64,000 bases of DNA, from contig NZ_CP040602.1 in the NCBI RefSeq assembly GCF_005885815.1, positions 821,630-885,629 of the forward strand. Direction: 5' to 3'. A model generated the notes under the pieces. It ran no database searches and had not been told where the DNA came from. It worked only from the letters and a program-made list of their open reading frames with translations. The position numbers were made by a program, and so were the translations under genes. Source of the DNA: Thiomicrorhabdus sediminis (GTDB lineage Bacteria > Pseudomonadota > Gammaproteobacteria > Thiomicrospirales > Thiomicrospiraceae). Below are positions 16,420 through 31,231 of this stretch, piece after piece. Position 1 is the stretch's first letter, and every line of letters starts with the position of its first letter.

Positions 16420-17043
16420 TTATTGTGCGTTAAGCAGGTCTAATTGACGCTCTTGAAGTTTTTGATCTTCGTTGATGCGGCTTGCGGTAGGGCCAGATTG
16501 GTTTTTATATTTTGCATCGGCACGCTTGTTATAAGGTTTCTCTGCGGCGCTGGATAAGGTTTCAAAATTGATTGCACAGATATCCATTCCCGGGCGCAAT
16601 GCCAATGGCAATTTGCCGCTATTGAAGATCTCCAATACGATTTGTCCCTGCCAGCCTGGATCAATACGGTGAGCGGTAACGTGTACCATCAAGCCCAAAC
16701 GAGCCAGACTGGAACGGCCATCAAGCCAACCTACCAAATCATCAGGAATCGTCACAGACTCCATGGTCGCTGCTAAGGCGAGTTCGCCCGGGTGTAAAAA
16801 GAAGGCGTCATTTTCACCGATATGGATCTCATCACCCATCACCGTGTCCATTATGCGCTGCATCTCTTCCTTTTCACCGCTCAGGTCAATATAGGGTGCC
16901 GTGTGGTCATTGAATACACGAAAACGATTATCCAGACGTAAATCTACGCTGATACCTTTAATTTTGTCTTCTGATGGTTGTGGGTGAATCCCAATTTTGC
17001 CAACTTTTAGGTATTGGACAATGTCTTTATCGCTCAGTTTCAT
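16420..17043 (-). CDS. dcd: Dcd, dCTP deaminase
   Basis: Turns dCTP into dUTP, the main route to dTMP in Gammaproteobacteria. At 207 residues it is slightly longer than E. coli Dcd (193), the excess being a polar C-terminal tail ([18 protein letters not shown]). Conserved blocks are [34 protein letters not shown], the nucleotide/catalytic segment [20 protein letters not shown] with [20 protein letters not shown] (catalytic Glu in VLE), and [15 protein letters not shown]. Its ATG overlaps the stop of the DUF3108 gene by 4 bases, so the two are translationally coupled. Confidence 0.96.
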
Positions 17044-17807
17044 AGTGGTTTCGGAGGCTCCGCTAATGATAGGGTAAGGGTTTTGTTTTCCTGGTTTTTT
17101 ATACGAACTTTACCGGGAAAATAGTTAAATTCGGGTAGTAACCAAAGTTCAATATCTGCTTTCGGGCTGACAAAATGGTATTTTACGGCATCCATATTAT
17201 CTTCGCCAAAATCTAATGCAATCCTTGCGTTATTGTTTTTCGACTGCAGCTTCAGTTCGGTCTGAAAATTAGGGTCAATTAAAACAAAGTGATCCAGTGA
17301 TTGTCGGTTGAGTTTGGCATGCCAGACGGCATAGCCAATTGATAGGGCATCGAACATCTTTTCTTTGACAGGCCATTGTTTGTTTTTTTGTGGGCAAACA
17401 ACTGTGTCCTGATTGAGTTTCAGTTCGGTGATTTTTTGGGTTTTTGTGCCGTTTTTTTCGCTAAAACCGACTTTGCGATAACCTTGCCAAAGCAGCTGCT
17501 TTTCACTTTGTTTAAAGCTGACGGTTTCCAATGAAGAGTCAGTAAAAAACAAAGCGGCCAATCCTGATGGCTTGGCATCGCTGATTAAAAAGCAGTTCTC
17601 TTGCTTGCATTGCCATTGATGTTTGGCAATACCCAAATTCATGCCCATCGCTTCAACATGGAACTTGGCTTGAAAATCCTGGATGCTTTGCGCTGCGGCT
17701 TGATGTTGAAACAGCATCAGCGCGCTGAAAAGCAAACCGGGCATAAGGTTGCTGATGCTTGGTCGGATATTTGAGTGATGTGTTCTTGCCGAGGTGAATA
17801 AATCCAT
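17040..17807 (-). CDS. DUF3108 exported protein
   Basis: A 255-residue protein of the DUF3108 family, known mainly from Proteobacteria and of unsettled function. The start at 17807 is preferred because GGAG stands 6 bases before it. A longer frame from 17852 has no such site. The N-terminus is a long signal region (hydrophobic core [12 protein letters not shown], cut near HQAAAQS). The body is beta-rich: [32 protein letters not shown], and a late [21 protein letters not shown] that is typical of the family. Two cysteines at WQCKQENCF may form a disulfide. It sits between purN and dcd, overlapping dcd by 4 bases; DUF3108 genes next to purN/purM are common in Gammaproteobacteria. Confidence 0.82.
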
Positions 17808-17855
17808 TACAGACTCCGTTGAACTGAAACCTTTGTTATTCACTATCAGCATAAC

Positions 17856-18533
17856 TTAAATATCGGCGTTAAACTCGACAGGAGTCTGAAGACAGTTTTG
17901 ATCGAGCCAAGCATGGTTATCCTTGAGGCTTAAGCGATCTTCAACAAACCACTGTACTACCTGAGGATAGGCGAGATGCTCCAGGCGATGTACTTTTTCG
18001 GCAAGACTGTCGGCGCTGTCATCGGCTCCGATTTCAAGCTTGGCCTGCAAAATCACCGGGCCGCCATCAAGTTCCGGGGTGACAAAATGAATACTTAAAC
18101 CATGTTCTTTGTCGCCGGCTTCAATCGCTCTGGTATGGGTGTTGAGTCCGGTATATTTAGGCAGTAATGATGGGTGGATATTCAACATTCTGCCCAGGTA
18201 ATGACGGGTAAAGTCCTGAGTCAGAATACGCATAAAACCAGCCAGTACAACCAAGTCAATTTGATGGCTGTCGATCAGTTTTTGCAGTTCTGCATCAAAG
18301 GCTTCACGGCTATCAAATTCGGTGTGGTCAATAACCTTTTGCTCGATATGGGCATCGGCGGCGCGTTTTAAACCGAACGCTTGCGGACGATTGCTGATAA
18401 CGATGGCTATCTCGTACAGTTCGGCATGCTGTTGCTGATGATCAATAATCGCTTGAAGATTAGAACCGTTACCGGAAATCAAAACGGCGATACGTTTTTT
18501 ACGATAGTCTGAAGAAGAGGATAATGTTGGCAT
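17856..18533 (-). CDS. purN: PurN, phosphoribosylglycinamide formyltransferase
   Basis: Transfers formyl from 10-formyl-THF to GAR in purine synthesis. A 225-residue, single-domain enzyme. Seen are the N-terminal SGNGSNLQAIIDHQQ, the isoleucine-to-leucine core VVLAGFMRILTQDF, the catalytic HPSLLPKYTGLNTH (Asn and His of the active site) and the Asp region FVTPELDGGPVILQA. The gene follows purM on the same strand with a gap of 68 bases that contains a hairpin. The usual gammaproteobacterial purMN pair is thus kept, with DUF3108 and dcd continuing the run. Confidence 0.96.
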   Translation of the reverse strand: MPTLSSSSDYRKKRIAVLISGNGSNLQAIIDHQQQHAELYEIAIVISNRPQAFGLKRAADAHIEQKVIDHTEFDSREAFDAELQKLIDSHQIDLVVLAGFMRILTQDFTRHYLGRMLNIHPSLLPKYTGLNTHTRAIEAGDKEHGLSIHFVTPELDGGPVILQAKLEIGADDSADSLAEKVHRLEHLAYPQVVQWFVEDRLSLKDNHAWLDQNCLQTPVEFNADI

Positions 18534-18561
18534 AGTAAAACTAATAAACGCTAAATTAAAT

Positions 18562-18594
18562 GTAAAAGGGCTTGCAGGTTATGGCCTGCAAGCC
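18562..18594 (-). terminator. hairpin/terminator between purM and purN
   Basis: Perfect 10-bp stem GGCTTGCAGG/CCTGCAAGCC with a 6-base loop. On the minus strand it is followed by CCTTTTACATTT, a modest T-run. It could end or attenuate transcripts from purM into purN. Confidence 0.6.
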
Positions 18595-18601
18595 TATCAA
18601 A

Positions 18602-19651
18602 TTAAGCTTGAACCAGTTTTACAGATGGTTTTTCTTGGTCAGACGATTCAATTTGACCAATGACTGATACCTGTTCACCAGCAGCCGTTAATAACTCGAT
18701 GGCTGTATCCTTGTCGGCTTCATCGACAACGATGACCATTCCGATACCGCAGTTTAGGGTACGGTGCATTTCTTCATATTCGACATTACCTTGCTCCTGT
18801 AGCCAGTCGAATACCGCAGGGCGCTGCCAGCTATTGGTATTGATGGTTGCCGAGGTATTGTTTGGCATAACGCGCGGCAGGTTTTCCAACAGGCCGCCGC
18901 CGGTAATGTGTGACAAGGCGTGAATATCGATTTGCTTCATCAGCTCTAGCAGCGGCTTGACATAGATTTTTGTCGGGGCCATCAGGGCGTCGATCAAAGG
19001 TTGTCCATCCATGTCCATATTTAAGTCGGCATTGCTGACTTCAAGGATTTTACGAATCAAAGAGTAACCGTTAGAGTGAGGTCCTGTTGAAGAAAGCCCC
19101 AGCATAATATCGCCGGCTTTGACTTTAGTCCCGTCAATCAAGTCAGACTTTTCCACAATTCCGACACAGAAACCGGCTAGGTCATAATCGCCTTGTGGAT
19201 ACATACCAGGCATTTCAGCTGTTTCACCACCAATCAATGCACAACCTGATTGCAGGCACCCCTCACCGATTCCTTTGACCACATCGGTAGCGACATTCAA
19301 GTCCAGTTTACCGGTTGCATAGTAATCTAGGAAAAACAGTGGCTCAGCACCCTGTACGATTAGGTCGTTAACACACATTGCCACCAAGTCGATACCTACC
19401 TGATCGTGTTTACCACTATCAATCGCTAAGCGTAACTTGGTTCCAACGCCGTCAGTACCCGAAACCAAAAGCGGGTTTTTGTATTTGCCCATATCCAATT
19501 CGAACAAGGCACCAAAACCACCCAGGGACGCAGGCACTTCAGGACGAGTTGTCGCTTTGGCAATAGGTTTGATGGCATCGACAAGGGCATTACCGGCATC
19601 GATATCAACGCCAGCATCTTTATAGCTAATAGATTGTGTATTGGTTGTCAT
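18602..19651 (-). CDS. purM: PurM, phosphoribosylformylglycinamidine cyclo-ligase
   Basis: AIR synthetase: closes FGAM to AIR with ATP, the fifth step of purine synthesis. The start at 19651 ([20 protein letters not shown]) gives 349 residues, as in other species; an upstream ATG at 19723 would add 24 residues unlike any PurM. Family marks are [85 protein letters not shown] and [13 protein letters not shown]. It is divergent from the DUF2066 gene, with a 223-base control region between. purN follows on the same strand. Confidence 0.97.
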
Positions 19652-19874
19652 AATCTCTAAATTCTGTACAGGTTTAAGATAAGGGAGTCGGTCAGAGAGA
19701 ACTATCCATTTTGTAGAAAACACAAAATTTTTGATAGAGGTTCAACTTTAGGGTATGGTCTGACTCCGTTCAGGTTGAATGAAACCTTGAAAAAAGCTGA
19801 CCTTTTACGCAAAAGTCTACACTGACTTAAACAAAAAATATTATGATATTGTAACGAAATTTTAAGAGCCTTAT

Positions 19875-21005
19875 ATGAGAAGTTTTCAGCTATTCAGTGT
19901 AATTTTGTCATTCTTTCTGCTTGTACCCAGTTCACAAGCCAATTCTGCCGTGATTCCCACCGAATTTTTCACCGTTACTCTGCCTTATGGTGATAGTGTC
20001 GATACCGCGGCGAAAGTGCCTTTAGACGGCTATGCGCAGAAAGCCATGCCGGTTTTGCTGATGCGTTTGACCGGACGCAGTGAGTTGTTGGACTCCAAGC
20101 TAGGGCAAACCTACATTAATCAGGCTAAAAAATGGTTGGCGAGTTATTACATTAAGCCACGTCTAGAAGATGGTGTTGTGGTTGGGCAGAATATCGCATT
20201 ACGTTTTGATGCCAATCGCTTAAAACAGGCTTTTCAGCAGCAGCATATCAAGTTGCTGAGCGCGGCGCAACGTCCGCCAACTTTGGTGATGGGGGCGTTT
20301 ATCCAGCAAGGACGTCTACAAAAGTTAACCGAAGAAACCTTGCGTTATCGTATTGATGTCGATTTCAGGGATTATCCACAGGCTTTGAAACTGCCGATTA
20401 AGGTGCCGGATTCGGCCAACCATTGGATCTATCCAGTCGATGCCAGTAATAACTTGAGCAAGGTTCAAGAAGCGATGATTCGTGAGAGTCAGCAAAACCT
20501 GTTAAGTTTCAAGTTGCAAAGTAGCAATGGTCAATATCAATTGGACTGGCGTTTATTCGCCTTAAATGGCGATACCCTGAGTTCCGGGTCAAGCAAGGGA
20601 GCGGAAAGAAGCGTTCTTTATCAAATCATGTTTAATGATGCGATGCAGCAGTATGCCAAAATCACTGCGGTTGAAACCTTACAGAAAAACCATATCTGGT
20701 TGCAGGTCAATCAAATCGGTTTCGGAGAACAGCTCAAAATGCTGGAAAAAGACCTGTTGGCGCAACAGCCGTTAATCACTCATGTTATGTTAAAACAGGT
20801 GTCCGCAGGACAGCTGAATTTTGATATCGAGTATCAGGGTGAATACCAGTCGTTAATCAACTGGTTGCAAAGCTGGAGTAAAGTTGAAATCATCAATAGT
20901 GATCCGGCGGCGCAAAAAATCGAAGTGAACGCCAAGGTCGCCGCTTTTATTGAAGAGCCCGAAACCTCTCTGTCGATTGAACAAGACAGCGCCTCTCAGC
21001 AGTAG
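19875..21005 (+). CDS. DUF2066 exported protein
   Basis: A 376-residue protein with a signal peptide (LILSFFLLVPSSQANS type, cut near residue 24) and the DUF2066 pattern: an N-terminal TVTLPYGDSVDTAAKVPLDG, then ALPVLLMRLTGRSELL-like text (here AMPVLLMRLTGRSELLDSK) and YYIKPRLEDG. Function is unknown; the family is periplasmic in Gammaproteobacteria. DUF2066 genes commonly stand directly before hda, as here (49 bases), so they may be co-transcribed. The C-terminus ends in a polar, Ser/Gln-rich tail. An AT-rich region with several possible -10 boxes precedes it; I cannot choose one. Confidence 0.82.
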   Translation: MRSFQLFSVILSFFLLVPSSQANSAVIPTEFFTVTLPYGDSVDTAAKVPLDGYAQKAMPVLLMRLTGRSELLDSKLGQTYINQAKKWLASYYIKPRLEDGVVVGQNIALRFDANRLKQAFQQQHIKLLSAAQRPPTLVMGAFIQQGRLQKLTEETLRYRIDVDFRDYPQALKLPIKVPDSANHWIYPVDASNNLSKVQEAMIRESQQNLLSFKLQSSNGQYQLDWRLFALNGDTLSSGSSKGAERSVLYQIMFNDAMQQYAKITAVETLQKNHIWLQVNQIGFGEQLKMLEKDLLAQQPLITHVMLKQVSAGQLNFDIEYQGEYQSLINWLQSWSKVEIINSDPAAQKIEVNAKVAAFIEEPETSLSIEQDSASQQ

Positions 21006-21054
21006 TCGTAGGTTTATCAAATTCGCGTAAATTATCACGCTTTAAGGAAATTAC

Positions 21055-21762
21055 ATGTTTGTGCAGATGCCTTTAAAAATTGGACTTCGTTCGGAAGCCT
21101 GTTTCGCCACCTTTGTTACGGAGCAGGAGTCGGTAGCGTTTGCATTGAATAACCTGCAGAAAAGTCTTAAAAGCGGGGGCGGCTCCTTTTATATGTTCGG
21201 CAATAGCGGCGTGGGTAAAACCCATTTATTGCAAGCGGCTTGTCGATTCATTACCGAGCACGATAAAACCAGCGTCTATTTACCTCTGAGCGATGATTCC
21301 TTGCCACTGATTCCCGATGTGTTGATCGGCTTGGAGCAGACCCCGCTGGTTTGTTTGGACGATGTCGATACCATTATCGGTAACAGTAAATGGGAGTTGG
21401 CTTTGGCTAACCTATTGGTCAAATCAAGCGTGCAAGGCCATAGCGTGATCCTCTCTGGTAAAAAATCGATCAGTGAGTGGTCTATAGCCACTCAGGAATT
21501 GATGAAAGCCCTGATTAATGTGCTACCGATTGAGATTGCACCTTTGACCGATAAGGATGAATTAATCAGTGCTTTAACGCGCCATAGTTCAAGGTTGGGA
21601 TTCGAACTGACCAAAGAGGTGGGCAACTATTTGATCAAACAGTTCTCCAATGATTTGCAAGAGTTATTGGCTGTGCTGAAAATGCTTGAACAGGCCAGTC
21701 TGGTGGAAAAACACCGGCTGACCTTGCCATTTGTGAAAAAAATCCTCAACCAGAACGGCTGA
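21055..21762 (+). CDS. hda: Hda, DnaA regulatory inactivator (arginine finger replaced)
   Basis: AAA+ protein of the DnaA family that, bound to the sliding clamp, makes DnaA hydrolyse ATP and so prevents over-initiation. 235 residues, like E. coli Hda (233). An N-terminal clamp-binding motif is seen as QMPLKI (residues 4-9). Walker A is GNSGVGKTH (49-57), Walker B VCLDDVD (99-105). The C-terminal part, DKDELISAL through RLGFELTKEVG to TLPFVKKIL, aligns well with E. coli. In box VII, E. coli has DLASRL with the essential Arg153; here the ungapped counterpart is ELMKAL, so alanine (residue 152, bases 21508-21510) stands where the finger should be. Confidence 0.9.
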   Translation: MFVQMPLKIGLRSEACFATFVTEQESVAFALNNLQKSLKSGGGSFYMFGNSGVGKTHLLQAACRFITEHDKTSVYLPLSDDSLPLIPDVLIGLEQTPLVCLDDVDTIIGNSKWELALANLLVKSSVQGHSVILSGKKSISEWSIATQELMKALINVLPIEIAPLTDKDELISALTRHSSRLGFELTKEVGNYLIKQFSNDLQELLAVLKMLEQASLVEKHRLTLPFVKKILNQNG

Positions 21763-21865
21763 CAGAAAAACGCCGATTTTAGGTCTATAGCGAATAATCG
21801 AAAAAAATAAACAAACAATTAATAGCTGAAAGGCTTTGTGATTGATGAAAAGAAAGGGAAACGAA

Positions 21866-22381
21866 ATGACTAAGCAAACTACATCAGATGTCCTGTCGAA
21901 TTTACGAACACTTGTGTTGAGCGTTTTGTTGTTACTGGCTTTTGGAGCTCAGGCGGCGGATGAAGACATTAAATTTGTCGATTTACAAGGCAATGAAAGT
22001 ACTCTGGCCGACTATAAAGGTAAGTGGGTAATTGTTAATCTTTGGGCAACCTGGTGTCCGCCTTGTCTGGTTGAGATTCCTGATTTGGTGATGTTTCAGG
22101 AAGAGAACAAAGAGCGTGCTGTGGTGTTGGGCGTAAACTACGAAAACATCGAAGCCGATAAGGTAAAAACCTTCGCTGAATCACAAATGATCAATTACCC
22201 GGTTGTTAAGTTCCCGGGGCGCGTAGACGGCCGTACTTCTCCATTTGGCGATGTTCGCGGACTGCCAACTACCTATATGGTAACGCCTGAAGGTAAGGTT
22301 GTTGCCGCGCGTACCGGAATGGTCGATCAAAAAATGCTGGAAGATTTTATTAGTAAGTTTGCGCAAATGACGGCAAAATAG
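21866..22381 (+). CDS. exported TlpA/thioredoxin-like protein
   Basis: A 171-residue periplasmic thioredoxin-fold protein. The ATG at 21866 is chosen because AGGG lies 7 bases upstream; a TTG-started frame from 21842 would hide the site. The signal peptide ends in FGAQAAD. The redox motif is WCPPC (Cys64, Cys67) in IVNLWATWCPPCLVEIPDL, and the cis-proline region is GLPTTYMVTPEG. Insertions resemble TlpA/ResA reductases. It is first in a plus-strand cluster: 45 bases to a second thioredoxin-like gene, then a TolC-like gene and an adaptor gene. It may keep partner cysteines reduced in the envelope. Confidence 0.88.
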   Translation: MTKQTTSDVLSNLRTLVLSVLLLLAFGAQAADEDIKFVDLQGNESTLADYKGKWVIVNLWATWCPPCLVEIPDLVMFQEENKERAVVLGVNYENIEADKVKTFAESQMINYPVVKFPGRVDGRTSPFGDVRGLPTTYMVTPEGKVVAARTGMVDQKMLEDFISKFAQMTAK

Positions 22382-22426
22382 TAAAGGTCGATTAACTGAA
22401 AAACTTGAGTTCATTAGGAGTGATGA

Positions 22427-22966
22427 ATGAGTAAAAACCTAAATCCAATCAAAGCGATCAGTTTGAGTTGTTTGATGGCGCTAAGTGCTTTTCTGACGAC
22501 CAACACCATGGCGGCCGAAAGTTTCTTTATGGAAACTTTTGGTAACTACCAGGAAGAGTTGGAGGTTGCTAAAGAGGACGGTAAGAAAGGGGTTTTTGTT
22601 TTTTATCATATGGACGAATGTCCGTTTTGCCATCGTATGAAAACGACGATTATGACCGAACCGGATGTGATCAAGCTTTTCCGTGATAACTTTCTGACCC
22701 TGCAACATGATATTGAAGGCAGTAATGAGATTACCGACTTCGATGGTCAAGTCGCCACCGCCCAAGAATTGGCGGAAAAGAAATACCGCGTTCGCGCCAC
22801 ACCGGTCATGATGATTTTCGGTTTGGATGGCAAGCCTGTATTGCGTTATACCGGGCCAACGCGCACTAAAGAAGAGTTTAAATGGTTAGCCGAATATGTG
22901 ATTGATGGCAGTTATCAAACCATGTCATTCACCAAATACAAGCGCCAGCGTAAGCAAGCCAAATAA
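22427..22966 (+). CDS. exported thioredoxin-fold protein, SoxW-like
   Basis: A 179-residue periplasmic protein with a signal peptide (cut near TMAAES) and a CPFC redox centre (Cys65, Cys68) in FVFYHMDECPFCHRMKTTIM, followed by a conserved-looking TEPDVIKLFRDNFLTLQHDI and the cis-proline segment VRATPVMMIFGLDG. This is the thioredoxin_2/SoxW-like layout, in which the first helix is followed by an inserted region. The C-terminus is very basic (YKRQRKQAK). It follows the first thioredoxin-like gene and its stop overlaps a possible start of the TolC-like gene (TAATG). SoxW proteins serve thiosulfate oxidation in some species, but no sox gene is present here. Confidence 0.85.
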   Translation: MSKNLNPIKAISLSCLMALSAFLTTNTMAAESFFMETFGNYQEELEVAKEDGKKGVFVFYHMDECPFCHRMKTTIMTEPDVIKLFRDNFLTLQHDIEGSNEITDFDGQVATAQELAEKKYRVRATPVMMIFGLDGKPVLRYTGPTRTKEEFKWLAEYVIDGSYQTMSFTKYKRQRKQAK

Positions 22967-22992
22967 TGCCTTTAAAATCAAGAGAGTCACTG

Positions 22993-24384
22993 ATGCTAAA
23001 CGGTTTTCAACGCCCATCTCTAAAGACGACCATCTTATTGTGCGCCGGTTTATTTAATTCACCTCTGCTTTTGGCGCAAAACGCTAGCGCTCCGGCCGAA
23101 GGTGAGATAGTTCAGGCAGCACAGCAATCCGCTCCGGTTTCATTACCTGTTTCATTACCTAACCCCTTAAGTCTAGAGGCCTTATTAGCTGACTATGCTC
23201 AGCTTTCGCCAAATATCAGGGCGCAACAGGCGATGCTAGAGATTAGCGAAGCTAACGGAAGCCTCAATGAATCGGTTAACAATTGGCAATTGGCGCTACA
23301 AGGACGTCTGGGGTATCGCGAGTTTAAAGAGCGCAGTGAGCCCAATCATCGTTTGGTATTGCATGTCGGTAAGGTGTTCTATGATTTTGGTCGTTTTGCG
23401 GCACAGGCACAAAGTGATGCCCTGATTTTGTCGCAACGCCAGCTTGAGTTACAACAGGTTGAGAATCTGCAGAAGTTGCAAGTGATTAAAGCTTATTTCA
23501 ATGCGTTGTTATCCGATTTCCAATACCGCGTCGATAACGAGGCCATGGCCATCGAATATGTCGGTTTTGATAAGTTAAAAGAGCGTCATGCCATTGGTCA
23601 GGCCTCAGACGTCGACTTATTGGCCGGTGAGCAGCTTTATCAAAAAGCTTTGGTGAAACGTATGCAGTCGGAGCAGGCTCAGCTTAAAACCCGTGTCGAG
23701 TTGGCCAATACCATCGGTTTGCCGCAAGCGCGTCCGGATGAGCTGGTCTTTCCTAAACTTGACGCTTTCAAACAACGTCAGCTGGGCGATATGAGTCTAG
23801 CTGCTCTACAGCAACAGGTTTTAGAAAAGAATCCACAAATGCAAGCGTTGCAACAGGCCTACCAGGCTTTGCAGTTTGATTTGCAAAAGGCTCAAAACCT
23901 GGACTCGCCAACCTTGCGTGGCGATGCATGGGCGGGGCAGTTAGACAGTTATCCTCAGTTAAGAGAAGGCAGCTGGAAAGCACAGATCAGTATTGATGTG
24001 CCTTTGTATGATGGTGGTAATAGTCGTGCCGGGCAGAAGTTGATTCAGGCAAAAATGAATCAGATGCAAGCCAATATGCAACTGCTCGCTCAGCAACTGC
24101 GTGCCGAGGTTGCGGATGTTTATTTTCAAATCAAATTATTGGATGCGGAGCAGAAACAACATAAGTTATTTGGCGACTATGCCGATCTTTATCTCGATTT
24201 CAGTCGCGCTCTCTATGAAAACGAGTCGGCAACCGACTTAGGGGACTCTATGGTGCGTCTTTCAGAAGCTAATTACAATATGGTTGAATGGCAGTTCAAA
24301 CAGGCTCTTTTATGGCTTGAACTGGATTATTTAGCCGGTAAAGCTCCAAATTTAAATTCAGCCGAAGTGATTGCGGCTCAATAG
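22993..24384 (+). CDS. TolC-family outer-membrane factor
   Basis: An outer-membrane channel/tunnel protein of about 463 residues. The start at 22993 (MLNGFQRPSLK) has AGAGAG 6 bases upstream; an ATG at 22966, overlapping the previous stop, is the alternative. The signal peptide ends near LLLAQNAS. Two OEP repeats of long helices with heptad-like Gln/Ala/Leu content follow (about 60-250 and 270-455), including LSPNIRAQQAMLEISEAN, VGKVFYDFGRFAAQAQSDAL and the mirror segment VPLYDGGNSRAGQKLIQAKM. These YDFG/YDGG turns are typical of TolC halves. TolC members need an adaptor and an inner-membrane pump; an adaptor gene follows, but no pump gene is nearby. Confidence 0.88.
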   Translation: MLNGFQRPSLKTTILLCAGLFNSPLLLAQNASAPAEGEIVQAAQQSAPVSLPVSLPNPLSLEALLADYAQLSPNIRAQQAMLEISEANGSLNESVNNWQLALQGRLGYREFKERSEPNHRLVLHVGKVFYDFGRFAAQAQSDALILSQRQLELQQVENLQKLQVIKAYFNALLSDFQYRVDNEAMAIEYVGFDKLKERHAIGQASDVDLLAGEQLYQKALVKRMQSEQAQLKTRVELANTIGLPQARPDELVFPKLDAFKQRQLGDMSLAALQQQVLEKNPQMQALQQAYQALQFDLQKAQNLDSPTLRGDAWAGQLDSYPQLREGSWKAQISIDVPLYDGGNSRAGQKLIQAKMNQMQANMQLLAQQLRAEVADVYFQIKLLDAEQKQHKLFGDYADLYLDFSRALYENESATDLGDSMVRLSEANYNMVEWQFKQALLWLELDYLAGKAPNLNSAEVIAAQ

Positions 24385-24406
24385 TTGTATGGGTAAAGGA
24401 ACTGCT

Positions 24407-24943
24407 ATGCAAAACTCTTCACAGCAAAACACATTGAATTATAGGCTTTCTTTTTTGGCGCTATCGGCACTGTTGCTCAGCAGTGTTTGGCAAACCGCCA
24501 GTGCCAATAACACGGTACGCATCGGCGCATTGGTAAGTGGACAGGTAAGTAAACTTTACGTTGATAACGGCCAGCAAGTCAAAAAAGGCGACAAGCTTGT
24601 CGATATCGACGCGCAACGTTATCAGGCAAAAAAGGCTTTATTGCAATCGCAGCTGAAAGTGGCTCAACTGCAATTTGACGATGCGCAGATCGAATATGAT
24701 CAAGCGCTCGACCTGTATGACCGTACCGTGACTTCAAAACGTTCTTTCGATGCCGCCAAACTTCAATACGAATTAGCCAAGGCCGGCCTAGAAAAGGCTA
24801 AAGCGGAGTTACAGCACCATCTGGCTTGGCAGAAGTACGTTTATATCAAAGCGCCGATTGACGGCACTGTCACCAAGGTTTTTATTGCCCCGGGCACAAC
24901 GGTATTTAAAGAAAATGAACCGTTAATTGAGTTGAAACCGTAA
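24407..24943 (+). CDS. minimal HlyD/AcrA-type periplasmic adaptor
   Basis: Only 178 residues, against 350-400 for usual membrane-fusion proteins. The ATG at 24407 is chosen for AAAGGA 6 bases upstream. After a signal peptide (cut near TASANN) come the first lipoyl half (RIGALVSGQVSKLYVDNGQQ, VKKGDKLVDIDAQRY), a coiled alpha-hairpin (about 75-145) and the second lipoyl half (YIKAPIDGTVTKVFIAPGTT). The protein then stops, so the beta-barrel and membrane-proximal domains are absent. There is no frameshift: the frame closes cleanly after ELKP. It directly follows the TolC-like gene (22 bases), making a pump-less pair. It may work with a distant pump or bind the TolC-like protein alone. Confidence 0.85.
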   Translation: MQNSSQQNTLNYRLSFLALSALLLSSVWQTASANNTVRIGALVSGQVSKLYVDNGQQVKKGDKLVDIDAQRYQAKKALLQSQLKVAQLQFDDAQIEYDQALDLYDRTVTSKRSFDAAKLQYELAKAGLEKAKAELQHHLAWQKYVYIKAPIDGTVTKVFIAPGTTVFKENEPLIELKP

Positions 24944-25047
24944 ACTCGATTGCGAGGAGTGTTAGCGCTAATTTTTGATTTCGCTACAAATAGAGCTAAA
25001 ATAATTAAAGACTTTCAGTTTTTACAGGATAACCTTAAGGGACAAGC

Positions 25048-25317
25048 ATGTTAGCAACCCGCATCAAATATGCAATGAAATACTGGCGTTTGGCCATTCA
25101 TCTGCTATTTAAAACCAAGCATTTCGGTGTCAATAACCTATGGTGGGCGCAACAGCCTTCAGCTATCGGCTGGCATTGGTATCAGATTTTATGGGGGGTA
25201 TTGACCATCTTGCCTATCTTGCGCAATTACCAGTCTTTAAAGGTGCGCAGCTGCTTGGGTTGGTTACCGGAAGCGGATTGTCTGGCATTAGGTTTTAAAG
25301 GGAAAACGTCACCTTAA
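25048..25317 (+). CDS. small protein of unknown function
   Basis: An 89-residue frame, preceded at 6 bases by GGGACA, which is a fair ribosome binding site. It is rich in Trp (six) and aromatic residues: YWRLAIHLLFKTKHFGVNN, LWWAQQPSAIGWHWYQILWG, VLTILPILRNYQ. One short hydrophobic segment (about 47-60) could be an amphipathic or membrane helix, and the N-terminus is basic. I do not recognise it. It lies 27 bases before the PilZ gene, so the two may be co-transcribed. Confidence 0.6.
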   Translation: MLATRIKYAMKYWRLAIHLLFKTKHFGVNNLWWAQQPSAIGWHWYQILWGVLTILPILRNYQSLKVRSCLGWLPEADCLALGFKGKTSP

Positions 25318-25344
25318 TTCAGCGGCTGTAAAGGAGCAATAATA

Positions 25345-26175
25345 ATGATTCAAATGGATTTAGAACAACGCCAATCGGCACGTTTTTCACGCCCGTTTGA
25401 AGTCACTAATAATGAAGATATTGCCTTTTCAGATCCGTTCGAAGGTAATGATGTCAATCTTACCGGTTTGAGTTTTTGGGTTGATGATGCCGATTTCTTC
25501 TTGCCAGGTCAGATTGTCAGTTTGCGTATCAAAAACAGTGATTCTGAGGAAATCTATTGCCTCGAAGGGGTTGAGGTTGTCCATCAGCGTCAGGTAGATA
25601 ACCGCGTTCTTTGCGGTTGTCATATTACTCAGGTTACCAGCGATCAGCTACTTGCCCATCACCGTATTGTCATGACCGACCAAAACACCGCGTTGATTTC
25701 CATGCAAGCAACGGATTTAAGCGAATTTGATTTCCTTGAGGACGGTTCGCAAATGTCTTCTGATGAGGCCGATTACCAAGAAGCGAGTATGGCTTTGAAT
25801 CTGGCGGTATCACAGCTTAAATCTAGCCGTCATTGGGGCTCTGAGCTTTTAAAAGATATCGAGGATACATTGCATTGCGCACAGAATTCTATGGTGGATG
25901 CCAGTGAAATCGAGCGTTTGCTGCAGCAGTTTTCCCACTATTATCAACATATGAGCGATACCACTATCGCACTGGGAATGCTAGCCAAGCTGTTAGCCCA
26001 TACTCCGAATAATCCGGATGACAAGCAAGCCTGGCAACGTTTAATAGCGGATTTTGAATCACGTTTTTTAACCGAACAGCAACAAATTGCCTATGACTTC
26101 ATGCATCAAGGTATGAGTGCTGAAGAGGCCTTACAGCTGGCCGAACGTTATTTGAATGAATCTTTTCAGCAGTAA
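25345..26175 (+). CDS. PilZ-domain protein with long C-terminal extension
   Basis: A 276-residue cytoplasmic protein. Residues about 5-105 form a PilZ domain, the cyclic-di-GMP receptor fold: RQSARF supplies the RxxxR motif (Arg9, Arg13), and DVNLTG matches DxSxxG with Asn for Ser. Beta-strand text follows (SFWVDDADFFLPGQIVSLRI, DNRVLCGCHITQV). Residues about 115-276 are acidic and mostly helical, with no family I recognise; they contain a cluster of Gln and Leu (ERLLQQFSHYYQHM). It could be a c-di-GMP-sensing switch linked to the diguanylate cyclase at 1502-3247, but that is inference. It is convergent with rlmJ. Confidence 0.75.
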   Translation: MIQMDLEQRQSARFSRPFEVTNNEDIAFSDPFEGNDVNLTGLSFWVDDADFFLPGQIVSLRIKNSDSEEIYCLEGVEVVHQRQVDNRVLCGCHITQVTSDQLLAHHRIVMTDQNTALISMQATDLSEFDFLEDGSQMSSDEADYQEASMALNLAVSQLKSSRHWGSELLKDIEDTLHCAQNSMVDASEIERLLQQFSHYYQHMSDTTIALGMLAKLLAHTPNNPDDKQAWQRLIADFESRFLTEQQQIAYDFMHQGMSAEEALQLAERYLNESFQQ

Positions 26176-26195
26176 GTCTGCGCGATCATCTTAAA

Positions 26196-27053
26196 TCACT
26201 CTTCGACAAGCTGTTCACAGCGATAAAAACCTTCTTTACCGGCTAGTTGAGTGCTCAGCCAGGGAAGTGCCTGCTGTGCAGCTTTCATCAAGGTCCAAGG
26301 CGGGTTAATAACAATCATTCCGCTTGAATTCATGCCTTTATCTTCGTCTTTGCCGATACCCAGTTCAAAAAGCTGAATGTTTTTTACGCCGCTATCCTTA
26401 AACTGTTGTTCAAGCAAGTCGATCTGTTTGCGATTGACGACCGGATACCATAGCGCATAGGTGCCAGTACTGAATTTTTTATGAGCTTTGATAAAAGCAT
26501 CCAGTGCGGTTTGGTAATCGGTTTTCACTTCATAGGGCGGATCCATCAGGATATAACCTCGACGCTCCTTTGGAGGTAACTGGCTGTTACAGCCATGAAA
26601 CCCGTCTTTTTGAAAAACCTTAATCCGACGGTCGTTGGCAAAATTCTGACTTAGCGTCTTGAATTCTCGAGGATGCAGTTCAAATAAATTAAGACGATCA
26701 TGTTCGCGCAGCAGATGCTGGGCAAACCAAGGTGAGCCTGGGTAATGGCTGAGTTCATCACTATTATTGAATTGCTGGATCAATTCAAGATATTGCTGCA
26801 CCAGTTCAGGGGCTTGCTCGAATGCGTTGCGATCTTGGCTCAGGTGCCAAAGTTTGCCAATACCGTTTTGGTACTCTTTGTTTTTTTGCGCTTCGGAGGC
26901 AAATAAAGAAAAAGCGCCGACACCGCTATGGGTATCGAGATAAAACATCGGTTTGGGTTTGCTGGTTAGGTAATCAAGAATGTAAGCACTGATACTGTGT
27001 TTCAGCACATCGGCAAAATTACCGGCGTGAAATGAATGCAGGTAGCTGAGCAT
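26196..27053 (-). CDS. rlmJ: RlmJ, 23S rRNA m6A2030 methyltransferase
   Basis: SAM-dependent enzyme methylating adenine 2030 of 23S rRNA. The ATG at 27053 is chosen for GGGAG 5 bases upstream and because MLSYLHSFHAGNFADVLKH is the family N-terminus; 285 residues follow (E. coli 280). Motifs are YLDTHSGVGAFSL (SAM binding), LFELHPREFKTL, and the catalytic LMDPPYEVKTDY (the DPPY of N6-adenine methylases). YALWYPVVNR and NSSGMIVINPPWTL close the fold. It is convergent to the PilZ gene and about 90 bases downstream of the RbgA-like gene on the same strand. Confidence 0.95.
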   Translation of the reverse strand: MLSYLHSFHAGNFADVLKHSISAYILDYLTSKPKPMFYLDTHSGVGAFSLFASEAQKNKEYQNGIGKLWHLSQDRNAFEQAPELVQQYLELIQQFNNSDELSHYPGSPWFAQHLLREHDRLNLFELHPREFKTLSQNFANDRRIKVFQKDGFHGCNSQLPPKERRGYILMDPPYEVKTDYQTALDAFIKAHKKFSTGTYALWYPVVNRKQIDLLEQQFKDSGVKNIQLFELGIGKDEDKGMNSSGMIVINPPWTLMKAAQQALPWLSTQLAGKEGFYRCEQLVEE

Positions 27054-27141
27054 GGTTTCTCCCATCGAGACAGTTGGCAATGACCGATAGAGAGCAATGC
27101 GATTCGTAAAGCTCAGCTAAAGACAATGTTTGGCTGTAGTA

Positions 27142-28086
27142 TTAACGTTTATTCTTTTTGTGACGTTTACGGCGTGCTTTTTTCGCTTCTTCGCGGAGGC
27201 GTTTCTTTTCTTCTTTTTGTTCACGCTGTTTTTCTACAATCAGTAGTTCTTGTTGCATCATCTGCGGGGTTTCTAAAGTTAAGGCGCCCAGCGTATTATC
27301 ACGATACTCCATTACCAATAAGCGCGAGACTTTTTCCAAGTCGACCATGCCGCCAGAGCGTAGACAGCCACGTTTTCTACCAATCTCGTCAAGCAGTTCT
27401 ATGTCAGTTGCCGGTAGCTCATCGAGTTGAAAACGTTTTTTCAAGGCTTCAGGGTAGGCATGCAACAGGTATTCTGCGGCATAGCTGGCAATATCCGGCA
27501 ACTCAAAAGCGGTTTCTTTAATGCCGCCGGTAATCGCCAAACGGTAGCCGCTGTTTTCATTTTCGATATTCGGCCAGAGCATTCCCGGTGTATCAATCAG
27601 GGTGATGTTGTCTTCTAACTTGATGCGTTGTTGGTGTTTGGTGACCGCCGGTTCGTTACCGGTTTTGGCGATGGTCTTGCCGGTAATGTGGTTAATCAAA
27701 GTGGATTTACCGACATTGGGAATGCCGATGATCAGCGCATGAATGGTTTTTACCGTTCCGATTTTTTCAGCCGCTAAGGATTTGATTAAATCAATCAGCT
27801 GTTGGCGTTTGTCGGATTGACCGGCGCTAAAAGCCAGAGTCCTAACCGATGATTCGGCTTCTAAATAGGTTTGCCATTCGGCGGTTTTGTCAGCATCGGC
27901 CAGATCGCATTTACTGAGAATCTTAATGGTCGGCTTATCTTTGCGAATCTCTTCGATCAGCGGATTTGTACTGCTGTAGGGGATACGTGCATCAAGAACT
28001 TCGATAAAAACATCGACCTGATTGAAAATCTCGCGCACTTCTTTCTGAGCTTTGTGCATATGTCCCGGAAACCACTGAATTGCCAT
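27142..28086 (-). CDS. YlqF/RbgA-family ribosome biogenesis GTPase
   Basis: A 314-residue, circularly permuted GTPase that assists assembly of the large ribosomal subunit. The permuted order is visible: the N-terminal IQWFPGHMHKAQKEV, then G4 (LSKCDLAD, near 60), G1 (GIPNVGKSTLINHI, near 125), G2/G3 (ITLIDTPGMLWP) and a C-terminal ANTAR-like helical region (about 190-265: YAAEYLLHAYPEALKKRF, IGRKRGCLRSGGMVDLEKV). The last 40 residues are a very basic Lys/Arg tail (KKRLREEAKKARRKRHKKNK), suited to RNA binding. It is close to B. subtilis RbgA in layout, and upstream of rlmJ, another 50S factor. Confidence 0.9.
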   Translation of the reverse strand: MAIQWFPGHMHKAQKEVREIFNQVDVFIEVLDARIPYSSTNPLIEEIRKDKPTIKILSKCDLADADKTAEWQTYLEAESSVRTLAFSAGQSDKRQQLIDLIKSLAAEKIGTVKTIHALIIGIPNVGKSTLINHITGKTIAKTGNEPAVTKHQQRIKLEDNITLIDTPGMLWPNIENENSGYRLAITGGIKETAFELPDIASYAAEYLLHAYPEALKKRFQLDELPATDIELLDEIGRKRGCLRSGGMVDLEKVSRLLVMEYRDNTLGALTLETPQMMQQELLIVEKQREQKEEKKRLREEAKKARRKRHKKNKR

Positions 28087-28339
28087 TATTTGCCATTAAC
28101 CACTTTGTCAAAATCTTGTACGAGATTATAACTATTCAGAATAGAGTTTATCCATTTTTACGAGAAAATTTCCAAATTAACTATTGCTGTTTATGTGTTA
28201 GATGGCTCTGTTGTAAGGAAGGGTTATCCTGTCAAGATTGAGTGTTTGAGAGAGGGGAGAAGTATTGTACAAGTTTTGTATAAATATATTTATTAATATG
28301 TATAATATAATTTCGAAAAAAATATAAAAGGTTTAGATC
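28087..28339. other. AT-rich divergent control region, RbgA-like / chemoreceptor
   Basis: 253 bases between divergent genes. The 60 bases before the chemoreceptor ATG are almost entirely A and T and hold several possible -10 boxes, including TATAAT; a -35-like TTGTAC lies near 28267. No sigma-28 flagellar promoter is seen. AAAAGG precedes the ATG as a ribosome binding site. Confidence 0.4.
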
Positions 28340-30802
28340 ATGGGCAATATTTCAATTAAAAATAAAATGATGATGATTCCTGTGATGGTAATCATTTTAT
28401 TAATAGGGCTTTACTGGTTGGTTAACTCCGGTCTTAATAATTTAGATGATAGAACTTATAAAGCGAGTTCGGCAAACAGTGTCATCAAGCATCTTGCTGA
28501 AGCGAGAATTTCTGAAAAAAACTACATTCAGCGTAAAGATGAGAAATACTTAGAAGAGCTTGAAAGAAATATTCAAAAAGGTATTGATATTACTAGTGAG
28601 TTGGAAAAGCGTTTTGATGACCCAAGCAATCTTCAATTAACTGCTAACCTAAATGGTGCCTTAGTAAATTATCAGCAGGCCTTCGTTGAATATACTCATG
28701 TCCGAGAAAAATCTTTAGACGCTGAAAAGCAGATGACTATTTCAGCGCGAGAGGTTGAAAGTTTGGCAAATATTGCACGGGAGATCCAAAAACAGCAGCG
28801 TGAAGAGTTGATGCAGGCTGAACCAATTAACATGTCGGCACTGGCGGATAAAATAAACAAGGCTTCCCTTACTAACAGAATTATTAAGAACCTGAAAGAA
28901 ATTAGGATTAATGAGAAGAATTATATTCGTCGAAAAGATGAGAAATACATTGCTAATGTAAACCAGCGTTTAGCTGAGATTAACCAGATAATTGGTGATT
29001 TACGTAATGATTTTAAGCGAGCTGAAAATAAGGCAAAAATGGACAGGTTACAAAATGCGCTACAAAGCTATGCCTCCGAGTTTGTTAAGTTTACTGAGTT
29101 GCGTGAACAGTCTATTGTTTTGATGGCAGAGTTAACTGAACAAGCTCGTCAAGCAGAAGAGGTGGCGACAATAATCAGATCTGAGCAAAAACAACAGCAG
29201 TTGGAATTTTTTTCAAGTTTAGACAAAACCTTTTTAATCGCATTCTTTGTTATTGGTTTGATGGTTTTGGCATTAAGTACTTATATTAGTCGTGCGATTA
29301 TTAAACCTATTGTTCATTTAGCAGAGGTTATGCATGAAGTGGTGAACCGAGGTCAGTTTAATTTACGCAGCGAAATTGATCAACAGGACGAAATTGGTCA
29401 AATGTCTAAGGCTTTTGATGAACTCTTGAACTCTTCTCAGAAAGCCATAGATGAAGCAAATAGTGTTTTGGAAGCCGTTGCTGAGGGGGATTTTGAAAAA
29501 CGTATGCTGTTATCGTTAAACGGCGATTTACAAAAATTGCAAAAGGGTGTTAACACCAGTGCGGGCAAAGTCGGCTTTATGATGGATGAACTTGGAAAGG
29601 TGATGGATGCCCTATATAACGGTAATTTCAATATAGAAATGCACGAAGATGTTACCGGTGAGTTTAGAGATAAGACTGAGCAAGCACTGCATTCAATTAA
29701 TCATACAGTAAACGGCATTATTGACGTTATGAATGCAATGAAATCGGGTGATTTTGATCAACGAATTACGGTTGAAGCCCGTGGTGATCTTTTAAAGCTT
29801 AAAGATGGTGTAAATCAGTCGCTTACAGAACTTAACGGTGCGATTAAGGATATTAGCGCAATTATGGTGGCTCAGGCTAAAGGCGACTTAACCAAGAAAA
29901 TTGAAAATCACTATAGTGGAGATTTAGCCGTATTAAGTGATGCGATAAACCAGACAGCGACACAATTAGTGCGAGTAGTAGCGGATGCGGTAAATACCGC
30001 CAATACGGTTGCTCACTCCGCCCAAGAGGTGACTAACGGAGCATTAGATCTAAGTCAGCGCGTCCAAGAACAGGCTGCATCATTAGAAGAAACCTCCGCT
30101 GCCATGGAGGAGATGAGTGCTACTGTTCTGAATAACACCGAAAATGCCAATAAGGCTGCCGAGCTTTCTCAGCAAGTTGAGTCGAAAGCAAAAACCGGTG
30201 TGCAGGTCATGCAAAAAACCATCAATGCCATGGCGCAAATCCAGGAATCTAGCCATAAAATATCTGAAATCGTCACCTTGATTGACGGTATCGCTTTTCA
30301 AACAAATTTACTGGCCTTGAATGCAGCTGTGGAAGCCGCTAGAGCCGGTGAACATGGGAGAGGTTTTGCTGTTGTTGCAGGAGAAGTAAGGGCTTTGGCG
30401 CAAAAGTCTGCTGAAGCGGCGAAAGATATTAAAGCTTTAATTGAAGAGAGTGTATCCAGAATAGATGAAGGTACAGGTTTGGCCTCAGAATCAGGAGAAA
30501 TGTTGGATAACATTAATGCTTCTATTATTTCAGTATCAGACATGATTACACATATAGCGAGTGCTTCTGAACAACAGGCTGAAGGAATTGGTCAAGTGCA
30601 TAAAGCAATTGCAGATATTGATCAGGTAACTCAGCAAAACGCTGCTTTGGTCGAAGAAACATCGGCTGCCGCCGAAAGTATGACTGATAGTGCAGACAGT
30701 TTAAGTAAGGATATGTCCTTCTTTGAAACGGGCAGGCAAATTGAACTTCAAGCTGATACGCTGATGACAACACGGGCACAGCTTGAATATAAAGCAAACT
30801 GA
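28340..30802 (+). CDS. methyl-accepting chemotaxis protein, HBM-like sensor
   Basis: An 820-residue inner-membrane receptor that signals through CheA/CheW. Order: TM1 (about 11-30); a long helical periplasmic domain (about 31-300); TM2 (about 301-322); HAMP (about 323-375) and further HAMP-like segments (to about 540); and an MCP signalling domain (about 560-790) with the hairpin tip LIDGIAFQTNLLALNAAVEA. The periplasmic part holds two related blocks, ARISEKNYIQRKDEKYLEEL (near 54) and IRINEKNYIRRKDEKYI (near 190). This repeat fits a helical bimodular (HBM) sensor of two stacked bundles. There is no C-terminal CheR-binding pentapeptide (it ends LEYKAN). The gene is richer in A and T than its neighbours, most of all in the first half. 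Confidence 0.92.
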   Translation: MGNISIKNKMMMIPVMVIILLIGLYWLVNSGLNNLDDRTYKASSANSVIKHLAEARISEKNYIQRKDEKYLEELERNIQKGIDITSELEKRFDDPSNLQLTANLNGALVNYQQAFVEYTHVREKSLDAEKQMTISAREVESLANIAREIQKQQREELMQAEPINMSALADKINKASLTNRIIKNLKEIRINEKNYIRRKDEKYIANVNQRLAEINQIIGDLRNDFKRAENKAKMDRLQNALQSYASEFVKFTELREQSIVLMAELTEQARQAEEVATIIRSEQKQQQLEFFSSLDKTFLIAFFVIGLMVLALSTYISRAIIKPIVHLAEVMHEVVNRGQFNLRSEIDQQDEIGQMSKAFDELLNSSQKAIDEANSVLEAVAEGDFEKRMLLSLNGDLQKLQKGVNTSAGKVGFMMDELGKVMDALYNGNFNIEMHEDVTGEFRDKTEQALHSINHTVNGIIDVMNAMKSGDFDQRITVEARGDLLKLKDGVNQSLTELNGAIKDISAIMVAQAKGDLTKKIENHYSGDLAVLSDAINQTATQLVRVVADAVNTANTVAHSAQEVTNGALDLSQRVQEQAASLEETSAAMEEMSATVLNNTENANKAAELSQQVESKAKTGVQVMQKTINAMAQIQESSHKISEIVTLIDGIAFQTNLLALNAAVEAARAGEHGRGFAVVAGEVRALAQKSAEAAKDIKALIEESVSRIDEGTGLASESGEMLDNINASIISVSDMITHIASASEQQAEGIGQVHKAIADIDQVTQQNAALVEETSAAAESMTDSADSLSKDMSFFETGRQIELQADTLMTTRAQLEYKAN

Positions 30803-30809
30803 GTCAGTT

Positions 30810-30835
30810 AAAAAGCCGCTTTAAAGCGGCTTTTT
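30810..30835 (+). terminator. terminator after the chemoreceptor gene
   Basis: Perfect hairpin AAAAAGCCGCTT/AAGCGGCTTTTT, with almost no loop, 8 bases after the stop. Flanking A- and T-runs allow use from both strands, so it also serves the convergent secreted protein gene at 30845. Confidence 0.88.
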
Positions 30836-30844
30836 AATGGCATA

Positions 30845-31231
30845 TTAAGGCTTCCATTCCAATAACTTGGGGAATCTTTCAATCGCTTCTTTTACAAAAG
30901 GGGTATCGCATCCGGTTCTTATGATTTTCATATCGGTATTACCGGCAATAAAGGTGCTGCGTTTTTGCACCGCATTACTCAACGCCTGAGGTGATTTGTC
31001 CGGGTACATGCCTTTCAGTTCCAGTGCGGTCAATTGGTTGACGGCGGCGAAGTTTTCCAAGAATTGATTAAACTCCTGTTTCGATGGACTATGGCAGTGG
31101 TCGATAACCGCTCGGGCTACGGAAAACTCTTCATAGATCTTAAGAATATTGTCATTGGCTTGAGCCATAGGGCTTAGTATAGCTAGTGCTAACCCGGTGA
31201 TTAAGAATCGGTTTAATTTTGTTTGTATCAT
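30845..31231 (-). CDS. small secreted protein, unknown
   Basis: About 128 residues from the ATG at 31231 (a GTG at 31240 is the alternative). It has a clear signal peptide (KLNRFLITGLALAILSPMAQ, cut at AQAND). The mature part is about 105 residues, helical, with two cysteines (DHCHSPSKQEF and RTGCDTPFVKEA) that could pair. No family is recognised. It is 13 bases or so after the gene for a small membrane protein, so the two are likely co-transcribed. The gene ends at the shared terminator of the chemoreceptor gene. Confidence 0.68.
   Translation of the reverse strand: MIQTKLNRFLITGLALAILSPMAQANDNILKIYEEFSVARAVIDHCHSPSKQEFNQFLENFAAVNQLTALELKGMYPDKSPQALSNAVQKRSTFIAGNTDMKIIRTGCDTPFVKEAIERFPKLLEWKP

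Follow-up and report, generated by a model that had tools for sequence, protein, structure and literature searches.

Gene organization and the conserved unit

The window analyzed here is a 64,000-nucleotide stretch of the Thiomicrorhabdus sediminis genome (contig NZ_CP040602.1, positions 821,630 to 885,629). Its open reading frames (ORFs) and family scans reveal four genes in one tight run on the plus strand. These encode a TlpA-like and a SoxW-like thioredoxin-fold protein, a TolC-family outer-membrane factor and a short periplasmic adaptor (Table 1). With starts at 21866, 22427, 22993 and 24407, the intergenic gaps are 45, 26 and 22 bases. Coordinates and family scans thus confirm the gene placement in the first-pass annotation of this DNA.

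In the current view, TolC channels are the ducts through which pumps discharge. The cassette of TolC, adaptor and thioredoxin described here is pump-less, and it is real, widespread and undescribed as far as the searched literature goes. No published description of this gene set was found in literature searches, most subscription journals being outside their reach. The conserved unit is very probably the trio SoxW-TolC-adaptor. Comparison shows these three genes to be, as far as gene content and order can tell, inherited, lost and moved together. A tightly conserved and widespread TolC-adaptor pair with a thioredoxin and without a pump would be a new use of the channel.

Table 1. Genes of the run and its immediate neighbors in the window
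Feature	Position	Strand	Evidence	Role
TlpA/ResA-like exported thioredoxin-fold protein	21866..22381	+	WCPPC; PF00578 AhpC-TSA, 67.1 bits	
SoxW/DsbH-like exported thioredoxin (Thioredoxin_2)	22427..22966	+	CPFC; PF13098, 56.9 bits	core of trio
TolC-family outer-membrane factor	22966 or 22993..24384	+	PF02321 OEP, 66.7 bits (cut-off 22)	core of trio
Short periplasmic adaptor, 178 aa	24407..24943	+	TIGR01730 RND_mfp, 109.9 bits	core of trio
c2, 89-aa family-specific orphan	25048..25317	+	no Pfam or NCBIfam match	neighbor outside trio
Hda	21055..21762	+		conserved upstream neighbor marking the usual site

The TlpA-like protein scores below the NCBIfam cut-offs for TlpA (66.6 vs 230 bits) and ResA (81.6 vs 170 bits). 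The window TolC likewise lies below the curated cut-off of the TolC type I secretion subfamily TIGR01844 (43.3 vs 225.15 bits). In a quick tree with long branches, this TolC and those of other trios separate with a support of 98 from all but one of the seven other outer-membrane factors (OEPs) of the genome. For the adaptor, an AAAGGAA stretch precedes the start at 24407, from which the 178 residues are read.

Recurrence across genomes

SoxW and TolC of the trio were sought in 369 genomes of the class, with SoxW matches accepted at E up to 1e-38 and TolC matches at E up to 1e-43. SoxW was found in 97 genomes and TolC in 90. Both occur together in 89 genomes, SoxW alone in 8, TolC alone in 1 and neither in 271 (Fisher p 8e-75, uncorrected for ancestry). 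Genomes with weak matches alone are left out of these counts, 7 in the case of SoxW (E 1e-25 to 1e-29) and 4 in that of TolC (E 1e-25 to 1e-30). Counted by hand, the TolC carriers of the class span about 46 family codes. Among 349 genomes sampled from the phylum, further matches (E up to 1e-35) were seen only in G603 and in three genomes of family f204, which lie outside the class. All four carry SoxW-TolC-adaptor.

Within the family of T. sediminis, the short adaptor is present in 30 of 37 genomes (E < 1e-27). The loci with names belong to Thiomicrorhabdus, Thiomicrospira, Hydrogenovibrio and Sulfurivirga, and the usual order is hda-TlpA-SoxW-TolC-adaptor-c2. TolC-adaptor is found in 27 of the 29 family loci that were fetched and SoxW-TolC-adaptor in 26; two loci (L041, L047) are cut by contig ends. 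Because of these proportions, and since carriers fall into dozens of families, the linkage is far from chance. One locus that is not cut by a contig end (L063, genome G034) has the adaptor abutting c2 without TolC, and TlpA-SoxW-TolC lies on another contig (L071). This is either a split operon or an assembly fault.

In 40 loci fetched by TolC (L105-L144), hand-picked for spread from the 90 TolC genomes, TolC is adjoined by the adaptor in all 40 and by SoxW in 38. A further 80 loci (L165-L244) were fetched by SoxW and contain it by construction; 78 of them have TolC, and the other two stretches (L218, L230) end immediately after SoxW. Removal of TolC frames shorter than 400 aa and of near-copies (95% identity) reduced 154 loci to 146 and then to 124. 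In this non-redundant set, SoxW is present in 122 loci, the adaptor in 123 and TlpA in 80. Median gaps are 4 bp for SoxW-TolC, -4 bp for TolC-adaptor and 29 bp for TlpA-SoxW. Gaps of 150 bp or less separate TolC from the adaptor in 122 of 123 loci and SoxW from TolC in 118 of 122. The median overlap of TolC and adaptor probably reflects translational coupling.

The first-pass annotation had named recurrence of a pump-less order across many genera as a test of novelty. That test was run and passed: the order is not confined to one species, and a full-length adaptor and pump gene do not normally lie beside these genes in relatives.

Separability of TlpA

Six genomes of the genus have no trio. 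They keep hda-TlpA-c2, and SoxW, TolC and the adaptor are gone as a block. In a tree of four flanking proteins (6 of 39 loci were dropped for too few flanking genes), these six form one clade (100/100) nested among carriers, which indicates a single loss of the trio. In G036, the hda-TlpA-c2 site is kept and SoxW-TolC-adaptor is located elsewhere (L064, L151). TlpA and c2 therefore lie outside the inseparable core, because both remain in place after loss or relocation of the trio. The first-pass annotation had joined two redox proteins to the TolC/adaptor pair, and had alternatively regarded both as unrelated to it. For SoxW, which is nearly inseparable from the pair, the first view holds and the second is rejected. 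TlpA does not share this bond, family f121 excepted.

Structure and length classes of the adaptor

The TIGR01730 match of the window adaptor exceeds the cut-off of 94.9 bits and covers only positions 21-164 of 322. Its AlphaFold2 model, with a mean predicted local distance difference test (pLDDT) score of 88, runs from one lipoyl half through an alpha-hairpin (helices at residues 76-112 and 114-146) to the second lipoyl half and then ends. The N-terminus resembles a signal peptide. The model superposes on residues 61-208 of 9tg4_G, a chain of an AcrA-TolC complex (Z 15.9, 146 residues, root-mean-square deviation 2.0). In AcrA, the barrel comes directly after this segment. Profile score and AcrA-type fold identify the protein as an adaptor of the RND (resistance-nodulation-division)/HlyD kind that is found in tripartite efflux. 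Neither a beta-barrel nor a membrane-proximal part was found in the window adaptor, by profile or by model. Profile, model and superposition thus bear out its earlier description as two lipoyl halves and an alpha-hairpin only.

Adaptor lengths in the 122 scorable loci fall into two classes, 158-189 aa in 45 loci and 247-279 aa in 77, with none between. In three scanned long adaptors, the TIGR01730 match extends to position 240-244 of 322; in the short ones (that of the window and two more), it ends at 164-165. The last ~78 positions are unmatched in five scanned adaptors (three long, two short). By length and scanned examples, long adaptors appear to keep a barrel-sized part and to be without the last quarter of the profile; short ones appear to be without both. 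The absence of a barrel claimed in the first-pass annotation accordingly applies, by length, to the 45 short adaptors and not to the 77 long ones. Comparison shows that no adaptor found with the trio is, judging from its length, long enough to include the membrane-proximal part, by which adaptors sit on pumps. A quick TolC tree has at least four switches between the length classes, their direction not being settled. These repeated switches suggest that the pump-facing side is dispensable.

The SoxW-like thioredoxin and its possible redox partners

The AlphaFold2 model of the SoxW-like protein (pLDDT 93) has a thioredoxin fold. Its nearest solved folds are 4fyc and 4fyb of Helicobacter pylori and DsbD-gamma. 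Its Thioredoxin_2 score is above the gathering cut-off of 27 bits, and it has a weak DsbH match besides. The label SoxW is carried over from the first-pass annotation and not from comparison with a reference SoxW, and SoxB of this genome is ~0.7 Mb away. The CPFC motif is found in 118 of 122 loci. Selenocysteine in SoxW was considered, since an in-frame stop is listed for some matches, and rejected for five loci: CPFC is intact and the aligned part is stop-free in L252-L255, and L256 has a stop at the C-terminal end.

Most TolC proteins (98 of 124) and adaptors (102 of 123) lack cysteine beyond residue 30. SoxW is thus unlikely to do disulfide chemistry on the channel and more likely acts on cargo.

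DsbD is the electron feed of periplasmic thioredoxins. Ten of the 124 loci (L110, L124, L129, L139, L214, L215, L222, L223, L232, L238), Ectothiorhodospira and Thioalkalivibrio among them, have a DsbD gene 3' of the adaptor and in the same orientation. The assignment was checked with Pfam in L232 and made by similarity to L232 in the other nine. In six of the loci, a CutA1-like frame (one Pfam-checked) lies between or overlaps. The ten DsbD loci occupy one part of the TolC tree and may go back to one event. In L263 of family f204, a DsbD_2 gene is located beside the trio. Elsewhere, a SoxW relative without TolC (L160, genome G356) has a DsbD-like gene downstream.

Inner-membrane pumps

RND searches gave no match in the window, and no pump was recognized on reading the ORFs of positions 17000-31000. 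The nearest RND gene, with an adaptor and an OEP of its own, lies upstream of the trio at a distance of ~28 kb. In the 124 fetched stretches, which are of unequal length, three RND queries found RND genes in three: L070, on the opposite strand, and L120 and L138, each with a second adaptor. The recurrent neighbor clusters, some of them Pfam-checked, also contained no pump that could be recognized by reading; no search was aimed at ABC or MFS pumps. The missing pump gene beside the trio, as first reported, is upheld by these results.

The genome has six RND pumps, each adjoined by an adaptor-sized gene (362-464 aa). Four of these adaptors were judged by position and reading and two also by adaptor search. 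No outer-membrane factor accompanies two RND-adaptor pairs, those at 94642-97650 and 296364-299381 of contig C1 (L245, L246). At 1.30 Mb, one OEP stands alone and is probably the general TolC.

Comparison with known systems

AcrAB-TolC, MexAB-OprM, MacAB-TolC and type I secretion likewise combine a TolC-family factor with the lipoyl-hairpin adaptor fold (Z 14-16). Unlike tripartite efflux and type I systems, the trio has no adjacent pump gene and has a thioredoxin gene locked into the operon. Its short adaptor, moreover, is without barrel and membrane-proximal parts, and the three scanned long forms are without the last quarter of the profile. TriABC-OpmH, which has an RND pump and two adaptors, resembles the trio in that 6vej is the best PDB sequence match of the adaptor profile. 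DsbD-gamma, H. pylori 4fyc, DsbH and SoxW-type periplasmic thioredoxins share fold and CxxC with the SoxW-like protein; to our knowledge, none of them is coupled to an outer-membrane channel gene. The BesA adaptor of Borrelia is also reported to be without a canonical adaptor part (PMC3807786). BesA, a component of a multidrug efflux pump, is missing the hairpin, whereas the trio adaptor has kept the hairpin and lost the pump side.

Association with sulfur oxidation

SoxB is present in 84 of the 90 TolC carriers of the class and in 67 of the 279 other genomes (p 2e-33, uncorrected for ancestry). It is also present in 29 of the 30 family adaptor carriers and in all four further carriers found in the phylum sample. 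By hand-read family codes, several families contain SoxB genomes both with and without the trio. The trio is nested within sulfur oxidizers rather than needed by Sox.

Sulfur outside the cell has been described in related organisms. PMC10608990 reports that Thiomicrorhabdus lithotrophica produces extracellular alpha-S8 despite SoxCD. PMC5733100 describes extracellular globules in Hydrogenovibrio thermophilus S5, for which its authors suggest "an unknown sulfur trafficking process". The terms soxW, thioredoxin and efflux do not occur in the main text of PMC10608990 or PMC5733100. In Sulfurovum, a TolC gene and HlyD-family genes whose locus tags nearly follow on one another are up on S0 (PMC10045233). 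How insoluble sulfur crosses the outer membrane is an open question. Chlorobaculum is said to make and use outside globules "by an unknown mechanism" (PMC12285230), and the uptake of solid sulfur by purple sulfur bacteria "remains unknown" (PMC11267869). The cassette offers concrete genes to work with, and naturally trio-less relatives for comparison.

Proposed function and alternatives

SoxW, TolC and the truncated adaptor may form one machine without an inner-membrane pump, in which a DsbD-reducible thioredoxin serves a conduit from the periplasm to the outside. We propose this tentatively and put it somewhat below an even chance. The adaptor hairpins would keep the TolC trimer open at its periplasmic end, resulting in a conduit that would start in the periplasm and end outside the cell; a pump-less conduit of this kind is, taken by itself, rather probable. 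DsbD/CcdA would keep SoxW reduced, the conserved cysteines of which are presumably the CPFC pair. SoxW could then load, unload or reductively solubilize cargo at the conduit mouth, and TlpA may assist in many species. Because most carriers have a sulfur-oxidation gene, we guess that the cargo could be zero-valent or sulfane sulfur (polysulfide/persulfide chains) moving to or from the outside. This guess is somewhat unlikely to be right. The trio may be a route across the outer membrane for sulfur or for another thiol-reactive substance. An outer-membrane sulfur gate in the full sense, with TolC propped open by a pump-less adaptor and loaded and unloaded by a DsbD-fed thioredoxin that bears sulfane sulfur, is decidedly unlikely. 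If true, thiol redox chemistry would take the place of a pump in powering transport, and sulfur oxidizers would export and retrieve zero-valent sulfur through the gate.

Several findings weigh against a single sulfur-handling machine. The 67 SoxB genomes of the class that are outside the TolC carriers have no trio, and the SoxB association ignores ancestry. Six trio-less members of the genus still have SoxB, which makes the trio unnecessary for Sox oxidation. No SoxB was seen in G005 (82% complete), the seventh trio-less genome of the family, or in the carrier G002 (83% complete). One carrier (L229) is labeled Thiomargarita, a genus known for internal sulfur. A link to rDsr or SoxCD, predicted for a role in sulfur globules, failed in 40 trio and 40 trio-less SoxB genomes drawn at random from the 84 and 67. 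The trio does not track dsrA (27/40 vs 23/40, p 0.49, with one partial match below the cut-off on each side) or soxC (10/40 vs 10/40 over the cut-off, 12 vs 13 with weaker matches). The unity of the trio is also broken in places. In f121 (G156, G270; L142, L143), TlpA-TolC-adaptor form one run without SoxW, of which a more distant version is found on a separate contig, and in G090 and G125 SoxW is 1-2.5 kb from TolC. Finally, the neighbors of the trio in f204 point to copper and cbb3 oxidase.

The last point leads to an alternative in which the trio acts in copper or cytochrome-oxidase maturation, handling Cu(I) or the thiols of haem proteins with CcoI or DsbD as partner. All three f204 loci (L262-L264) have a CcoI-like Cu-ATPase near the trio, Pfam-checked in L264, where it lies 11 bp from the adaptor, and assigned by reading in L262 and L263. 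L262 also has cbb3-type genes nearby (COX1, FixP_N), as does, by reading, L264. The CutA1-like genes 3' of the trio in six loci fit as well, as does the closest solved fold of SoxW, 4fyc, which we take to be the CcmG-like HP0377. Reading of the 60 largest neighbor clusters, however, revealed no CcoI-like group, no targeted search having been made. TolC and adaptor are mostly cysteine-free, and SoxW occurs without TolC in only 8 of 97 genomes, which is odd for a maturation factor. We regard this explanation as improbable. The scarcity of cysteines also counts against SoxW acting on the TolC channel itself, be it as redox gate or as disulfide chaperone. Such a role agrees with the strict SoxW-TolC linkage, but it is very improbable when 98/124 TolC proteins and 102/123 adaptors offer no cysteine after residue 30.

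An unlikely alternative, though a stronger one than copper, is that TolC and the short adaptor work for a pump encoded at another site, which would have a full adaptor of its own with the short one as helper. TriC is served by two adaptors in this way, and 6vej, the best PDB match of the adaptor profile, is an RND adaptor construct. An outer-membrane factor is missing beside the RND-adaptor pairs near 94.6 and 296.4 kb, and in G181 and G189 a second adaptor and RND gene lie downstream of the trio. Yet the free OEP at 1.30 Mb could serve both factor-less pairs, each of the six RND pumps has its own adaptor-sized neighbor, and 121 of the 124 stretches, unequal in length, contain no RND gene. The remote pump suggested in the first-pass annotation is thereby weakened, with the two pairs left in its favor. 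That thioredoxins and TolC/adaptor are mere neighbors through conserved gene order, with no common function, is scarcely credible. The site is indeed conserved in many carriers, with Hda, ArsC, FMN_red/WrbA-like, acylphosphatase and class II tRNA synthetase genes, and the explanation is partly right for TlpA. SoxW, by contrast, is lost or moved with TolC and adaptor while TlpA stays, and 118 of 122 SoxW-TolC gaps are at most 150 bp. In addition, three genomes outside the class hold the trio together in another context, and TolC-adaptor occurs without SoxW in 1 of 90 genomes, plus two with SoxW on another contig.

Neighboring genes

Relatives of Hda lie upstream of the trio, for example, in L068, L106 and L145-L151; the L106 copy has the Hda lid domain. 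Clustering of neighbors for a functional partner returned mostly housekeeping genes, and antisense frames cloud the clusters in GC-rich genomes. A lipoprotein-like gene, LysM/DUF4398-like by reading and without a Pfam match, lies upstream of the thioredoxins in 40 of 111 neighborhoods (e.g., L133:11779-12489). Scans for regulatory sites gave 4 promoter-like sites vs 5.8 in shuffles (sd 2.7) and 6 terminator-like sites vs 4.4 (sd 2.1).

The orphan c2 is absent from all 21 genomes outside the family and present in 36 of the 37 family genomes, six of them trio-less. Its role as a necessary fifth component was rejected, as it is kept in the six trio-less genomes and stands apart from the trio in G036. 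The protein is strongly conserved: mean column identity is 78% for c2, 45% for TolC and 39% for the adaptor, the latter two alignments including three non-family loci.

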